Below are positions 1 to 11,849 of a stretch of DNA of 61,820 nucleotides, one piece after another. A program made the translations under genes and the position numbers. The notes under the pieces were generated by a model, which made no database searches, was not told the origin of the DNA, and was given only the letters and a program-made list of their open reading frames with translations. Source of the stretch: a virus; the IMG/VR virus record IMGVR_UViG_3300049218_000500, positions 1 through 61,820 of that record. The stretch is one strand, 5' to 3'. Position 1 is the stretch's first letter. Every line of letters begins with the position of its first letter.

Positions 1-1110
1 TTAAGCCATCGCCTTGATCACCTGCCATTCTGAGCCCCGCGCATCACGATAGCGGTCGGTCATCGTAGCGGTCTTGTGACCCATCAGCGCTTGAGCAAAA
101 TCGCTGCCGTGAGTCTCTGAATAGAGTCTCGTGGACAACGACCGGATCTCGTGAAAAGATGTGGGCGTTTTACCCGCGGCCGGCTTGTATTTGAGGATGA
201 CCAACATCTTTCGCATGACATGCGAGTAGGCGTTCACGCCGGGTTGATCGCCGATCTTTTTATGGCGATACGAGCGAACGAAATGGAAGAGGCTCTTGCT
301 CAGCACTCGGTCATTGCACTCCAGTAAAACTTCGGCAATGGACATGTCGATATTTGGCATTCGCAGATCTACTGGTATTTTCAGCTTCACGCCTGTCTTG
401 CTCTGATGAATCCACAGATAGCCGTCTTTGATGTCCCGCCGCATCAAACGGCTAAGATCTCCGACGCGCTGCCCAGTGATCAGCGCCATATTCATTGCGT
501 TGACGAACCAGCGCAGATCCGGGTCCTTTTCTGCCTCTTTGCGGATCGACAGGAACAGGTCAAGTGTCATGCGCTCCCGCGTCACCTTTGACTCAGGTAG
601 GAACGTCGATTCCACAGGGCTCTGCCCAGGTTTAATGAAGCCTTGGTTGATCGCCTCACGAAATAGCGAACGCGCACGCGCACGCACTTTTGGCGGTAAC
701 GACTTGCCGCGTACCGCCGTTCCCTTGACCATCTCGACGATGTCACGCGGTTCTACGACTGAAATTTGCTTGTCGCCGATCGCTGCGGCGATGGCAGCGA
801 CTTCATATTCAATATTCACGAGCGTGCGTTTGCCGGCGTGCTTCTCCCGGATCGGAATCATGTATTCCTCGATCCATGCCGACACGGTTTTGCCGCCACC
901 ATCTATTCGATCAAGCAGCGTCGGCGTCGTAGCACGCAAGGCAAGCTGAGCGTTGACGGCTTTGGCTTGCTGGCAAGCCACCTTGAAATCCGTCCCAAGT
1001 CCGTACGTCTTCTTAGTCTCCGGGTGGCGGAACCAGTAATAGCCCTTGGCATTCTGATAAAGGTTCGCCGGCCAATTTCGGCGAATTGCCTCTCGGCGTC
1101 TAGCGGCCAC
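1..1110 (-). CDS. int: Tyrosine-family phage integrase
   Basis: Site-specific recombinase expected to integrate and excise the prophage. The 369-residue protein has an N-terminal DNA-binding and core-binding part (about 1-175) and a C-terminal catalytic domain with the full family set: R215 in ITGQR, K238 in QSKTG, H320 and R323 in FHEIR, H345 in MGHK and the nucleophile Y354 in TDRYR. The stop codon is the first three bases of the window, so the attachment site expected beside int lies just outside it. The gene reads away from the prophage and starts just inside the excisionase gene, the usual int/xis coupling. Target choice cannot be read from the protein; the right junction points to a response-regulator gene. 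Confidence 0.96.
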   Translation of the reverse strand: MAARRREAIRRNWPANLYQNAKGYYWFRHPETKKTYGLGTDFKVACQQAKAVNAQLALRATTPTLLDRIDGGGKTVSAWIEEYMIPIREKHAGKRTLVNIEYEVAAIAAAIGDKQISVVEPRDIVEMVKGTAVRGKSLPPKVRARARSLFREAINQGFIKPGQSPVESTFLPESKVTRERMTLDLFLSIRKEAEKDPDLRWFVNAMNMALITGQRVGDLSRLMRRDIKDGYLWIHQSKTGVKLKIPVDLRMPNIDMSIAEVLLECNDRVLSKSLFHFVRSYRHKKIGDQPGVNAYSHVMRKMLVILKYKPAAGKTPTSFHEIRSLSTRLYSETHGSDFAQALMGHKTATMTDRYRDARGSEWQVIKAMA

Positions 1111-3029: not shown

Positions 3030-3226
3030 ACCTCCTTATCTGCCAGATCCTCTCTTGAGTCGACGACCTCGAGTGAGATCCCGAGATCTGCGCAGACATC
3101 CATATGCCCTTGCCAGTAGTCGCTCAGACTCGGCGCATTCATGTTGCGATCCCGGTGCTTTTGGGCGCTCTGATATCTGCTCTTGAGCGCGGCTAGCAGC
3201 TCGTTGTTGCTCGTGTGCCCGTTCAC
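3026..3226 (-). CDS. Small hypothetical early protein
   Basis: 66 residues, mostly helical and polar, with no cysteine pairs or membrane segment. It overlaps both neighbours by 4 bases, the pattern of this whole operon, which is the best evidence that it is real. No family recognised. Confidence 0.65.
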   Translation of the reverse strand: MNGHTSNNELLAALKSRYQSAQKHRDRNMNAPSLSDYWQGHMDVCADLGISLEVVDSREDLADKEV

Positions 3227-4242
3227 GATGTCTCCTTCCCAGCCGACGGAAAGCCGTCATGTGTGGCACCGTCGAGTTGTCTCCCCGCACTCTTTTTGCC
3301 CATTCGTTCGACAATCGCCCGCGCACCGAAACTCGTGAATTGACGTGGGTACCGGTCGGTCCTGTGAAAGCGCGGCATCCGGTCATAGGCATCGTCATGC
3401 GTATAATCGCCATATGCAAAAGCGCCAGGCGTCTCACTCGGACGCGGCTGGGCCGGTGCCCATTCTCCCCATTGCTTAAACAGAAACGGGACGGCGGCAG
3501 CAGCGCACTGGTCTCGTAGTGAGCGGGTCCACTGAATACTCATGGGCCGTGCATTCGGTCCGCTCTCGCCGCCGACGATCACCCAATCCAGTGCCTTTCG
3601 CCGCGTCGTGAGTACGCCACCTTTTCCGTCGCGCTCGGCGCAATCCTCGTATTTCAGGAGATCCAGGTCTACCGGCCCCAACAACGGCTCCATCGAAAGG
3701 AACCGGACACGCGCCGGCACAGCCAGCAGCTTAGGGATGTCGCGATCGGCTTCAGCCTGATTGACGATCGTTGCGCCAAGCCAGACGTTGTCGAGTAGGC
3801 GAGGGTTCCACACTGTTTCAAGATCAAATCGGATTTGAGCCGTCTCCGTGATCATGCGCATGACATTACCGATGCGCTTGGTCAGTAGAAGCCAGTCGAG
3901 GTTTGGCGTCTTCTCGATCAAATCGAAGAGGTCGCATCGCCATTGAACGTCGACCCCGTTATCGAACACGTCGGCCAGACTGGCGCAAAACACGCGCTGC
4001 CGGCGCTGATGCTGGGCGTAGAAGACACCCGCGTTCCGGTTCCATGCCATCGGCTTGCGCCAGTTGGCGACGGACGTGCGTCGCCGTGGAGCACCTGGGC
4101 CCCAGTTCACGGCGGTGCCGCCACCGAAGCGGGCATTGCGCGTCTCGGCGTAGCAGTTATCACAGCCCGGGCCGACCTTCTGGCATCCTTCCCACGGGTT
4201 AAAGGTGTGGTCCGCCCATTCGATATTGGTGTTTTCGCTCAC
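3223..4242 (-). CDS. DUF5131 (phage Gp37/Gp68 family) protein
   Basis: 339-residue protein of the phage Gp37/Gp68 family. The N-terminus has NIEWADHTFNPWEGC and a cysteine cluster (GCQKVGPGCDNCYAE) that resembles the CxxxCxxC class of radical-SAM proteins; later come WLLLTKR, SMEPLLGP and VIVGGESGP, all typical of the family. Biochemical role unproven; Fe-S or metal binding is inferred from the cysteines. The start is the GTG at 4242, because it forms a GTGA overlap with the upstream stop and begins the conserved region; a longer reading to 4371 would run through the neighbouring gene. Confidence 0.88.
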   Translation of the reverse strand: MSENTNIEWADHTFNPWEGCQKVGPGCDNCYAETRNARFGGGTAVNWGPGAPRRRTSVANWRKPMAWNRNAGVFYAQHQRRQRVFCASLADVFDNGVDVQWRCDLFDLIEKTPNLDWLLLTKRIGNVMRMITETAQIRFDLETVWNPRLLDNVWLGATIVNQAEADRDIPKLLAVPARVRFLSMEPLLGPVDLDLLKYEDCAERDGKGGVLTTRRKALDWVIVGGESGPNARPMSIQWTRSLRDQCAAAAVPFLFKQWGEWAPAQPRPSETPGAFAYGDYTHDDAYDRMPRFHRTDRYPRQFTSFGARAIVERMGKKSAGRQLDGATHDGFPSAGKETS

Positions 4243-4826
4243 GCCACTACCTCCGTCCCTTGGGCCGACTCCGCAGCCACCTCTGCGCGTAGATGCGCGA
4301 TGAACGGATCCCAGACGTTCCGGCCAAGTCCAACGAGCGACGGCTTCATCCGTTCCTTCGTCCAGTGCCATGGCTCTACGTTAAGGAACGCACTCCGACA
4401 ACACATCATTCGCTGGATAAAACCGTCGCGGCTATCTGCCTCAGTTGGGATTTCGTCCCATATTTTTCGAGCGCGATCCGCCTCCATGAACTGACGGCGC
4501 CGCTCCTTCAGCAGCTCGCGCTTAACCGCCGCGACAGTCGCGTCAAAGTCGAATTCGTACATCGATGCCGGTTCGAGGCGATTCAGTATGTAATGCAGGT
4601 CAACGCCCAGTAGAAACTGCTTGAGCGGCTTACCCATGCTGCCGAAATACGTCGAGTAGGATCCGTATGCCGAGCTGATGATGATTTTCCCGTGCTCATG
4701 CGTATCGCCGCGAATTCCGACTTCGGTCCAACCGCGAATAGCGATGGTCGCCTCGAAGTCGCCGTGCTCGTTTTTGATCTCGTACCGCTCCATCGGCGGT
4801 TCTTTGGTTACGATGGATCTGCTCAT
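4239..4826 (-). CDS. Hypothetical early protein with conserved YGSYS segment
   Basis: 195 residues. The start at 4826 is chosen for its ATGA overlap with the methyltransferase stop and an AGGGAG 7 bases upstream; an ATG two codons earlier lies too close to that site. The protein contains SSAYGSYSTYFGSMG near residues 50-64, a basic helical middle and an aromatic C-terminal part. Similar short phage proteins sit beside methyltransferases, but I cannot assign a function. Confidence 0.7.
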   Translation of the reverse strand: MSRSIVTKEPPMERYEIKNEHGDFEATIAIRGWTEVGIRGDTHEHGKIIISSAYGSYSTYFGSMGKPLKQFLLGVDLHYILNRLEPASMYEFDFDATVAAVKRELLKERRRQFMEADRARKIWDEIPTEADSRDGFIQRMMCCRSAFLNVEPWHWTKERMKPSLVGLGRNVWDPFIAHLRAEVAAESAQGTEVVA

Positions 4827-6799
4827 TGCCATGCTCCCTGTGTATTCGGCAGCGTTAATGCCATAGCGATCGGCCGCACCCAGATCGCCTGCGAGCTCAA
4901 CATGAACGTCTCGCCCGACCAAGCCAGTAGAAGCGTCGTGCACATGGTCTCGCCGATCGCGCGGGCGGCGTAGCGGGGAACAGCGTTGCCGACACGCTCG
5001 CGCCAGTCCTGATCGGAGAGGCCGGACAGCTCAAGGTATTCCTCGGGCTCGACGAGACTTTGCAGGGCGGCCAGCTCAAGCGTCGTGAACGGGCGGTGCC
5101 ACGTGCCATCGCGCGCCGTGATGCGGCAGATCAGCTTGTCGCCGGCGGCAGGTAGCGTTGCAACGGCAGCTTGCGATTCGGTGCAAGTTTGCTGTTCTCG
5201 CGGATCCGCAACCGACCAACGGCCGTTATCGTGTCCAGCTGCCGCCGACACCGCGCCCGCCGACTCGTTCCAGTCGACGACGCCGTAATGGCCGGCCGTC
5301 AAATAGGAGTCACCACGTTCACGCGAAAAGCCCGGTCGGGGATCGGCGACGCTCGGCGCGCCACTACCGAAGCGGGCGCCCGTGACCGTCTTAGCCGACT
5401 CATCAAAGGAAGTCACAGCCATCTTGTTCCCGTGCGCCGAGTCCGGCCAACCTGTGCGCGGATCTGCAACTGAGAAAGCCCCGTTGGCATTCCCGGCGAT
5501 GACCGTGCGCGAGGCGTCATTCCACGGCGTGACGTGGTACTTCCCGTGCAGTTCAGCAGGATCCTTGCCTCCACGCGGATCCGCTACGCACTGTCCGGTA
5601 CCGTGCGCGCTGGTTATAGCCATTGCGGCTTCCGACCACGGAACGATTCGGTACTCGTTGCTATGTTTGGCGGGGCCGCTGTGGCGCGGGTCTGCGATGG
5701 TGAACTTGCCGCCGCCTGGCGCCGATTGTCCACTGACGGTGCCCATGGACTTCTCCCATGCCAAGACTCCGTATTGCGAGTACTCGGCCGCGTCGGCGGG
5801 ACCGCGCGGATCTGCGATCGCAAAAACACCGTTGGTCGGCATACTGCGCCCAGCTACGGTACCGGCTGGCTCGTCCCAATTCCCGACACCGCAATATCCG
5901 CGATGGTATTCATTACTTGGCACGATAGCGAAGTCCGTCAGCACGCCGTCAGCGACCCGCAGCGATTGGAGGGAGCGCCAGTCCTTGCCCGCTTCGACAA
6001 ACGCCAGGCGCACCCACGTCTTCCATTGCAACGACGGAACACGGTGCATCGGCCCTGCGGCCAAGTCTCCCGGCAGCGGCATCCGGCCGAGGACGGCACT
6101 GACCGGTTGCAAGCGCTTCTTCTCCGGCTCGTACAGGAACGGCGGGACCTTTGCCGTGTGGCGCGCCACTAGCAAAAATCGCTTGCGTGATTGCGCCAGG
6201 CCGCCCAGCTCGCCGCAGTCGTGCGTCGTCTCGCGGACCACATAACCGTAGCGCTCCAGCAGCGCAATGATCTGATCGAGCAGGTGCCGGCCGCGTGTCG
6301 CGATGCGAGGAACGTTTTCGAAGATCAGCAGCTCAGCCGGATCGTTGGAGAACGCCTCCAATGCCAACCAGATGCCGCGCAGCGTCAGCCGGTTGAGCGC
6401 CTGGTACTTATCGGTCTTGCTGCGCGTCTCCGATAGCAGCCCCGAAAACCCTTTGCACGGCGCCGACAGGAACCAGATGTGCGGCCGCTCGTTGCCGAGT
6501 CCGCGGCGGATGTCTTCGACGGTCGCTTCGCGCCAGTCTGTCGGCGGCTCTTTCCCGTGGAAAGCGATGTACTGCGATCGGTCCATCAGATCAATGACGG
6601 TACCGCGCGCGCCGGTAAGCTTGTCGAAGTCGGCGATTGCTCGCGTGTCGACGTCAAAGCCGCCGATGCAACGCGGTTTCGCCACCATTGCGCCGACGCG
6701 TGCATGCGCCTCGTTGAACCCCATGGCGCCGCCGCCCAAGCCGCAGAAAAGGTGGGCGTGGCGGATCTCCATGGGGATCGGGTTGATGTGTGCGGTCAT
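4823..6799 (-). CDS. C5-cytosine DNA methyltransferase with six internal repeats
   Basis: 658-residue 5-methylcytosine methyltransferase. Visible family motifs: motif I FCGLGGGAMGF (18-28), catalytic C115 in SAPCKGFSG (motif IV), FENV at 160-163 (motif VI), QSRKRF at 203-208 (motif VIII), TLELAALQ at about 573-580 and RVGNAVP at 602-608 (motifs IX/X). Between motifs VIII and IX, about residues 295-535, the target-recognition position is filled by six imperfect repeats of about 38-45 residues, each ending in ADPR and containing a W/F-(D/E)-E or W-N-D core. No restriction endonuclease lies beside it, so self-protection or host mimicry is likelier than a restriction system. Start overlaps the upstream stop as ATGA. 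Confidence 0.93.
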   Translation of the reverse strand: MTAHINPIPMEIRHAHLFCGLGGGAMGFNEAHARVGAMVAKPRCIGGFDVDTRAIADFDKLTGARGTVIDLMDRSQYIAFHGKEPPTDWREATVEDIRRGLGNERPHIWFLSAPCKGFSGLLSETRSKTDKYQALNRLTLRGIWLALEAFSNDPAELLIFENVPRIATRGRHLLDQIIALLERYGYVVRETTHDCGELGGLAQSRKRFLLVARHTAKVPPFLYEPEKKRLQPVSAVLGRMPLPGDLAAGPMHRVPSLQWKTWVRLAFVEAGKDWRSLQSLRVADGVLTDFAIVPSNEYHRGYCGVGNWDEPAGTVAGRSMPTNGVFAIADPRGPADAAEYSQYGVLAWEKSMGTVSGQSAPGGGKFTIADPRHSGPAKHSNEYRIVPWSEAAMAITSAHGTGQCVADPRGGKDPAELHGKYHVTPWNDASRTVIAGNANGAFSVADPRTGWPDSAHGNKMAVTSFDESAKTVTGARFGSGAPSVADPRPGFSRERGDSYLTAGHYGVVDWNESAGAVSAAAGHDNGRWSVADPREQQTCTESQAAVATLPAAGDKLICRITARDGTWHRPFTTLELAALQSLVEPEEYLELSGLSDQDWRERVGNAVPRYAARAIGETMCTTLLLAWSGETFMLSSQAIWVRPIAMALTLPNTQGAWQ

Positions 6800-10004: not shown

Positions 10005-11849
10005 TTAGGCGGTTGCTACGGTCTCGGCGTGCGCGATCACGCCTTCTTCAATCCAGTACCCGCTGATCTGAAGCCAACGATCACGGTCCGTGTCATTCAA
10101 TATCGCGGGTACGGCTTTGAGGGTTCCGCAGAGAATTGCGCACTCGATATCGTTGAACTCTGCCAGCTCGTCCAACCATTCCAAGAGGTCGCCGCGCGAT
10201 TCGAGATCGAGCACATCGACGCGATCGAGCGTAACCAGGCCGAGCTTTGAGAGGTGCGCGATTGCGACGGCGATCATTGCGTCTGCACGCCACTTCTCAG
10301 ATTCGGAGAGCAGGGCGAAGGGACGGTCTTCGGACGTGATGGCCATGTCCTTTTCGATCGTGACCGGCAGGAAGCCGCTCGACTTCGAATAAGAGCTCAG
10401 ATGCGCGTTGATGGGCTTCAGTGCCTGTTCAAGCATCTTTCCCGGAATGCCGTCTGGTGCGAGCTGTTCGGCGATGAGCAGCCACGCCGCAACGTCGTTA
10501 TGGTGCTTAGCGGCATCCTTCGTCTTCTGCTCTGCTGCATCGGACTTGACCTTGTCCTGGGCGAGCGCATCGACAGTAGTCTGCAAGTCGCTGCGCTGAC
10601 GGCGCGCGGCTTCCAGTGACTTCTTGATGGCGTCGATGTCGTCTTGAGTGACTTTCTCGACATCGCCTTGTAATTCGAGCGCGGCAACCGCCGCTTCCGC
10701 CGCCGCGAGGTCGCGCTTGGCGTTCGTGACTGCGCGCTGCATCAGGTCGCGCGCCTTGGTCAATTCCGGCAGCTGCTCCCGTGCGGCATCGTCGCCGGCC
10801 GCGCCCGGCTCGCCGAACTGCTTTACGTATGCAAGATAGGCTTCGTCGGCGGCCGTGATGCCGTCGATCTCGGTCCAGGACTCGACGTCACCTTCGCGGT
10901 GAAACCCAGCGACGCCGTCGCTGTTGTTGGACAGTGCCAGAAAGGTCAGCAGGCCTGCGGCCAGTTCGTGGACCAGGCCGACCCGCGGCGCGGTGCCGGC
11001 GCGCTGGGTCGCATCCGTGAGCGTGGCCTCGGCCTTCGACAGGTTCTGCTCGTCGGTTTCCAGCTTTGCACGGCAGCGCACGACGGTGGCTGCGGCTTCC
11101 GCACCGCCCGATGATTGCGCTTGCCACTTGGCATAGGCGGCCGCTTTCTGTTCCGACACGCCCAGTTCCCGACTCTTGGCAGCGATACGCTCGTCGCACT
11201 CGGTGAGTTGTGTCTTGGATGTCTCCAGCTTGCGAGCATCGAACAGTGGCGCTTCCGCTTCCCAACCGTCCGCTTTCTTCTCGCCCCACGTCTCGCCCGT
11301 TACCGTGCGCCACGACGTCTTAGACTCCTTGGCACGCTCCTTGGCGTGATCGCACGCGGCAGGGAACCCGGAGCGCAGCATCGGCAACACCGCTTCCACC
11401 AGTTGCGCGTCCGCCTTCGCGTCCAGTAGCTGCTTGCGCACGCCGTCGGCGGTTGCGGCCAAGCCGGTCAGGTTGAACAGGAACGTGCGGCGCGTCGCTG
11501 CATCGGCCCGCGAGAACGTCGATGCCTCAAGCACGTACGGCAGCGCGTCCATGTTGATCGCCAAACCTTCCCACTTCGTATCGGACGGCGTGATCACGAG
11601 CGATGCCTCGCCGTGGTCGGTGCCGAGCGTGACACTTGCACGCTTCTCGCCGTCAGCGATGAGGGCGCCATGCGTCTTCTTCGTGGTGACGCGCTCGACA
11701 TCGCCCGTGAGCGCCGCGCGGATCGCTTCCTGCAGACTGCTCTTGCCAGCGCCGTTGAGGCCAGCGAAGAGGGCGACCGGCGTATCGAACGCGAGATCGA
11801 TATCGCGCACGCCGACGAAATTCTTGATGCGAAGGTGCTGGATCTTCAT
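10005..11849 (-). CDS. SMC/Rad50/SbcC-like ATPase
   Basis: 614-residue AAA/ABC-type ATPase. Walker A is GLNGAGKSS at about residues 30-38, directly after IKNFVGVRDIDLAF, the typical start of SbcC/RecF-like proteins. The middle (about 210-490) is long and helical with Glu/Lys/Ala heptads, and no CxxC zinc hook is seen. The C-terminus has a signature-like LSESEKWRADAMIAVA and a Walker B-like LVTLDRVDVLD. It probably works with the DEDDh exonuclease, RecT-like protein and nuclease of this operon to process DNA ends. No separate SbcD/Mre11 gene is visible. Confidence 0.9.
   Translation of the reverse strand: MKIQHLRIKNFVGVRDIDLAFDTPVALFAGLNGAGKSSLQEAIRAALTGDVERVTTKKTHGALIADGEKRASVTLGTDHGEASLVITPSDTKWEGLAINMDALPYVLEASTFSRADAATRRTFLFNLTGLAATADGVRKQLLDAKADAQLVEAVLPMLRSGFPAACDHAKERAKESKTSWRTVTGETWGEKKADGWEAEAPLFDARKLETSKTQLTECDERIAAKSRELGVSEQKAAAYAKWQAQSSGGAEAAATVVRCRAKLETDEQNLSKAEATLTDATQRAGTAPRVGLVHELAAGLLTFLALSNNSDGVAGFHREGDVESWTEIDGITAADEAYLAYVKQFGEPGAAGDDAAREQLPELTKARDLMQRAVTNAKRDLAAAEAAVAALELQGDVEKVTQDDIDAIKKSLEAARRQRSDLQTTVDALAQDKVKSDAAEQKTKDAAKHHNDVAAWLLIAEQLAPDGIPGKMLEQALKPINAHLSSYSKSSGFLPVTIEKDMAITSEDRPFALLSESEKWRADAMIAVAIAHLSKLGLVTLDRVDVLDLESRGDLLEWLDELAEFNDIECAILCGTLKAVPAILNDTDRDRWLQISGYWIEEGVIAHAETVATA

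Follow-up and report, generated by a model that had tools for sequence, protein, structure and literature searches.

The stretch of DNA analysed here (the window) comprises the 61,820 bases of an IMG/VR virus record. An integrase gene stands at its start and is followed on the same strand by exonuclease, RecT-like and SbcC-like genes, and the opposite strand carries the terminase and tail genes. Integrase, recombination, terminase and tail genes together therefore mark the record as a temperate tailed phage. The gene under study, which encodes a putative orphan C5 cytosine DNA methyltransferase of 658 residues, sits in the early region of this phage, beside the integrase end (Table 1). No restriction enzyme was recognised among the neighbouring proteins scanned, which comprised part of the window's open reading frames and included many of unknown function; nor is a restriction gene annotated beside the relatives in phages LKA5, PBC5 and CF418P1 and plasmid pND6-2. 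Downstream of the methyltransferase lies a gene of the Gp37/Gp68 family (DUF5131, phrog_2045), whose product also matches the PADLOC candidate-defence models PDC-M41B/M30B and, below the cut-off, a radical-SAM mobile pair model. The SbcC-like SMC/AAA ATPase shows weak matches to many defence ATPases (PtuA, GajA) and, together with the RecT-like and PD-(D/E)XK genes after it, probably forms a recombination set.

Table 1. Features of the methyltransferase gene and its surroundings in the window.
Feature	Position	Residues	Strand	Evidence
Integrase	1-1110
DUF5131 / phrog_2045 gene	3223-4371		-	PF07505 E 1e-90
C5 cytosine DNA methyltransferase, 658 aa, putative orphan	4823..6799		-	Pfam and PHROG profile matches, motifs read in sequence
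Motif X, GNAVP, Asn605 present	4976..4990	604-608	-	sequence
Motif IX, RPFTTLELAALQS	5057..5095	569-581	-	sequence
Unit 6, class B (usual last type), adjoins motif IX	5198..5314	496-534	-	HMM E 4e-18
Unit 5, class K, HGNKMAVTSF...TVTGARFGSGAPSVADPR	5336..5449	451-488	-	HMM E 8e-12
Unit 4, class J, LHGKYHVTPW...TVIAGNANGAFSVADPR	5456..5566	412-448	-	HMM E 2e-15
Unit 3, class D, HSNEYRIVPW...AITSAHGTGQCVADPR	5573..5680	374-409	-	HMM E 4e-14
Unit 2, class L	5684..5800	334-372	-	HMM E 1e-16
Unit 1, class A (usual first type)	5804..5920	294-332	-	HMM E 6e-16
Antisense open frame, 287 aa	5382-6245		+	repeated 'RGSA' pattern
Motif VIII, QSRKR	6179..6193	203-207	-	sequence
Motif VI, ENVPR	6305..6319	161-165	-	sequence
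Motif IV, PCKG, catalytic Cys115	6449..6460	114-117	-	sequence
Motif I, FCGLGGG, AdoMet binding	6728..6748	18-24	-	sequence
SbcC-like SMC/AAA ATPase	10005-11849		-	weak matches to defence ATPases

The 658-residue protein matches the Pfam family of C5 cytosine methyltransferases (PF00145, E 6.8e-12, 45.9 bits, above the curated gathering cut-off of 22) and two PHROG families, the DNA methyltransferase phrog_116 (E 3.9e-46) and phrog_32684 (E 1e-101). With the NCBIfam model TIGR00675 (dcm), it scores 33 bits, below the curated cut-off of 100.65. Motifs I, IV, VI, VIII, IX and X can be read in canonical order, motif IV with its cysteine, and nine residues of the motifs (C115, K116, E161, N162, V163, P164, G604, N605 and P608) are unchanged across 51 homologues; the enzyme looks intact. 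The PCKG of motif IV is invariant, with K116 in place of the Q of most C5 methyltransferases. Past motif X, residues 609-658 form a C-terminal extension that is kept in relatives (LLLAWSGETFxLSxxPIWVRP).

Between motifs VIII and IX, a profile HMM built from homologues alone, with the window protein excluded from training, matches exactly six units (residues 294-534, window 5920-5198), each with E < 1e-11. The preliminary description had placed six copies ending in ADPR between these motifs at 5195-5923; the independent profile confirms both the description and the coordinates. The units are 36-39 residues long, with end-to-end distances of 37-46 residues, and follow roughly the pattern Y-x-V-x-x-W-(D/E)-x-x-A-x-T-V-(T/S)-G ... 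G-x-(F/Y)-S-V-A-D-P-R. Pairwise identity among the six is 23-44%, and 14 of the 15 unit pairs outscore all 1500 shuffles, the exception being the pair of units 3 and 1. Tandem Repeats Finder returned zero rows in the array at the DNA level, which indicates that the unit copies are old rather than products of recent slippage. The only non-unit stretch between motifs VIII and IX that could count as a possible recognition region consists of about 85 residues before unit 1. Antisense to the units runs a 287-residue open frame that looks like an artefact of high GC content and repeats, because its recurring 'RGSA' corresponds to the ADPR codons read in reverse.

The identity of the units emerges from comparison with ordinary C5 methyltransferases. 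Set against an alignment of such enzymes from bacterial genomes together with two phi3T enzymes, the unit profile had its best match, of unit columns 6-39, directly before motif IX (E 5.7e-4), in the C-terminal part of the target-recognition domain (TRD), and the next match was chance-like (0.52). The hhalign score was 24.3, against a null of 9.3±1.6 and a maximum of 15.9 in 150 column shuffles. Used by itself, the unit HMM also hits this spot before motif IX in several ordinary enzymes, among them L204 (YGRMSWDDPSPTITT, E 7e-4) and L189 (RVRGWNEPSFTIQAGGRH, E 0.008), the latter being an orthologue of M.HaeIII (E 7e-60 to 1DCT). Through the L189 alignment, unit columns 11, 13 and 27 align with R227, R229 and R243 of 1DCT; in the M.HaeIII-DNA structure, R225, R227 and R243 reportedly contact guanines. 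Columns conserved within the classes of units described below but distinguishing one class from another cluster in two blocks, 2-9 and 23-33. These blocks flank the conserved strand and T-V pair and align with the DNA-reading loops of M.HaeIII, as the pair of reading loops in a C5 TRD should. In a class-free test on middle units from proteins with core identity below 75%, units sharing loop 1 were 86% identical in loop 2 and 58% identical in the scaffold between. The two loops thus go together and are more constrained than the strand between them. Because the unit profile aligns with the TRD core before motif IX, the six units are best read as six tandem TRDs. TALE-like, propeller and scaffold readings were also considered and are disfavoured by the same homology.

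Structure prediction was informative for the catalytic core. AlphaFold models made with the 51 homologues, and of a four-unit homologue (L142) with Firmicutes relatives, were good in the core and of low confidence in the units (pLDDT about 25-57 in both runs). The L142 model superimposes on 1DCT with Z 25.8 and an rmsd of 2.9 over 276 residues. Foldseek and VIA matches were dominated by the catalytic core and are not evidence on the units. PDB sequences yielded no match to the full-length profile or to the protein itself, and the structural link was therefore made through the unit profile and the M.HaeIII orthologue. Repeat arrays often bind proteins, and AlphaFold leaves this one unfolded, so the units might instead bind another protein, such as a replication, packaging or host factor, without setting the methylated sequence. 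We consider this very improbable in view of the TRD homology, the position before motif IX, the class-specific residues in the predicted DNA loops and the want of any recognition region other than the units and the short stretch preceding them. The protein-binding scaffold offered as an alternative in the preliminary description thus found no support.

The same architecture is seen in relatives on phages, plasmids and Firmicutes elements. The tblastn matches come from 36 records of phages and 168 of plasmids; more than 500 stretches matched in viral scans and 177 in a scan of GTDB genomes. Most belong to Proteobacteria, and a Firmicutes branch is found on phages and plasmids; a Bacillus licheniformis plasmid protein used as query in a viral scan gave no match. 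A unit number fixed in all homologues would have spoken against the preliminary description. The number instead varies from 3 to 9 among 182 distinct proteins: five units in 89, six in 73, seven in 8, four in 7, eight in 3, and nine and three in one each. The methyltransferase of Sinorhizobium phage PBC5 has eight units, and the longest array seen, of nine, is encoded on a plasmid of Sphingopyxis sp. 113P3 (L290, 2974-5367). On the Roseomonas mucosa plasmid NZ_CP025190.1 the match is split in two, an IS3-family transposase is annotated at that place, and the copy is apparently interrupted. The methyltransferase on plasmid CP065422.1, whose label names Priestia aryabhattai, belongs to the Pseudomonas-plasmid type and agrees with it in identity and coverage values; contamination or mislabelling is possible. 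A search of the open-access literature found no paper on this repeat family, although absence there is not proof.

Clustered at 50% identity, a threshold that is a matter of choice, 1003 units fall into about 30 main classes and a number of single-member classes. Class A comes first in 169 of the 182 proteins and class B last in 179, and Firmicutes members have characteristic first and last units of their own. The middle positions are drawn from the remaining classes, giving 90 arrangements in the 182 proteins; that of the window protein is A-L-D-J-K-B. Arrangement differs in 43% of the protein pairs whose cores are at least 95% identical, and 112 changes of arrangement map onto the core tree, on which single classes change as many as 32 times (class C 32, class D 30, class E 30). 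Near-identical genes, with N- and C-core DNA 86-96% identical, differ by replacement, insertion or deletion of a single cassette. Between L231 and L248, for example, unit 4 is replaced and one unit is missing, and DNA identity falls from 95.5% in the N-core to 61.5% in unit 1 but stands at 99.2% for unit 2 and 96.4% for unit 6; the main difference between L222 and L248 is the absence of one 40-residue unit. In L092, L236, L090 and L224, units 2-3 include half-cassette chimaeras, in which one second loop (K-S-P-G-Q-G-T-F) is combined with different first loops, which suggests that the two loops of a unit can also recombine separately. Judged from these gene comparisons, variation of the array is recombinational shuffling of old cassettes. 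The proposal that unit number could change by recombination therefore holds in the form of exchange, insertion and deletion of pre-existing, diverged cassettes, and not in that of expansion of a DNA tandem repeat.

These patterns bear on two further explanations. Variable unit number is what old, drifting repeats with little function beyond spacing might display, yet class D loops are 86% identical where core identity averages 71%, loops being conserved within classes in distant proteins, and the classes recur in many backgrounds; such drift is barely credible. Units that are tandem, similar in length and variable in number could also read one long or degenerate site jointly, as a TALE/PUF-like composite. 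This we regard as improbable, because the homologue of each unit is an entire TRD core, both loops included, rather than a one-base reader, and because the order-preserving single-unit insertions and deletions in near-identical genes would alter a composite site every time.

Cassette class was compared with the depletion or enrichment of palindromes of 4, 5 and 6 bases in 76 related phages, and no robust link was found in 960 tests on 16-20 kb per phage, a comparison confounded by lineage and small groups. Nominal results were obtained for class H with CGCG (p 1.9e-5) and for class L, which has few members. Three words are rarer than expected across the same 76 stretches (within L341-L417): CTAG, strongly so (mean log2 observed/expected -1.5), AAGCTT and AGATCT.

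We consider it quite likely that the gene encodes an orphan C5 methyltransferase of a temperate phage with an array of six TRDs, exchangeable as cassettes, which would make the enzyme multispecific and protective. In the proposed mechanism, a single catalytic domain would flip and methylate the cytosine, and each unit of about 38 residues would supply a TRD core whose two loops, the first preceding the Y-x-V-x-x-W strand and the second following the conserved T-V pair, read the DNA. The units may dock one after another beside motif IX, so that several different short sequences are methylated. Recombination between mobile elements would swap, add or drop cassettes and thereby alter which sites are protected, and the phage or plasmid carrying the gene could withstand several restriction enzymes of its host. 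We infer from these comparisons that each class has one target, that the units dock in turn and that the enzyme counters restriction; the last point is supported by analogy, because MtbP of SPbeta protects phage DNA from host defences (PMC8270828). As a reading, the modular or multi-target recognition first suggested for the array is well supported by the TRD-core homology, the 3-9 units and the cassette swaps, with multi-target activity predicted.

Not every unit need read DNA. In a variant to which we give somewhat less than even credence, only the middle units (here 2-5) would do so, with the first (A) and last (B) serving as structural caps against the catalytic core; the enzyme would still be multispecific, with fewer targets than units. 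The near-constant placement of A and B and the distinctive end units of Firmicutes members speak for such caps. Against them, units A and B both carry the full two-loop TRD core, no class is more diverse than A (mean pairwise loop identity 0.53), and unit 1 was swapped between L231 and L248 as a recognition cassette would be. A DNA-reading role for unit 1 is favoured because it varies so sharply between close relatives, whereas the good conservation of unit 6 is compatible with a cap as well as with a constant target.

For the family at large, we lean slightly towards a pool of some 30 or more portable recognition cassettes, each reading one short sequence, from which mobile elements of Proteobacteria and Firmicutes assemble 3-9 per enzyme. 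Such an array would let a single gene specify a list of protected sites, open-ended and exchangeable, in a combinatorial code that can be read from sequence. One cassette, one motif is a prediction directly testable by methylome sequencing. If each class has a single target, a cassette-to-sequence dictionary would emerge from the methylomes of relatively few members, and many members already reside in cultured Pseudomonas, Burkholderia and Roseomonas, on plasmids and prophages. Genome sequence would then suffice to give the methylation patterns of hundreds of phages and plasmids, the passage of mobile elements through several restriction barriers by means of a single gene would become clear, and a natural set of compact TRDs would be available for building 5mC methyltransferases of chosen specificity. 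The old question of how several TRDs share one active site is also made testable with very large natural variation.

Several known systems invite comparison. The cytosine carboxymethyltransferase CmoX, a homologue of phage C5 methyltransferases, has an active-site Arg and needs a CmoA gene (PMC12783734); this Arg stands where ordinary C5 methyltransferases and the window protein have the Asn of GNAVP, and a Cx-SAM carboxymethyltransferase was rejected on motif X, in which N605 is invariant. Type I HsdS TRDs, and TRD 'domain movement' in H. pylori and S. aureus, change specificity by exchange of recognition domains (PMC3983042, PMC3077401), but HsdS is a separate specificity subunit of an unrelated fold, serving adenine methylation, and its likeness to the window enzyme lies in evolution only. 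M.HaeIII and M.HhaI (1DCT, 10MH) share the catalytic fold, and their TRD core segment is homologous to each unit, but they carry one TRD where the window protein carries a tandem array.

A close likeness is also to the phage-borne orphan C5 methyltransferases M.SPRI, M.Phi3TI, M.Rho11sI, M.H2I and M.phiBssHII, which also have tandem TRDs in the variable region ahead of motif IX. The multispecific enzymes of Bacillus phages carry only a few TRDs each, whose sizes and details were worked out by Trautner and colleagues and which reportedly measure about 40 residues. The six window units match the arrangement of two or more tandem TRDs between motifs VIII and IX found in multispecific C5 methyltransferases. 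In the Bacillus phage enzymes of SPR, phi3T and H2, the tandem TRDs give several recognition sequences (PMC8936443), and the earlier premise that classical TRDs are single domains is to that extent incomplete. M.Phi3TI has no blastp similarity to the 658-residue protein (best E 2.1), and the likeness to methyltransferases of the SPbeta group would be one of organisation and way of working, not of descent. The present family differs from these enzymes in its 3-9 units of about 30 main classes, its fixed end units, its conserved VADPR signature, its largely proteobacterial range including plasmids, and its evident cassette exchange. What is new here relative to the Bacillus precedents is the scale and modularity of the array.
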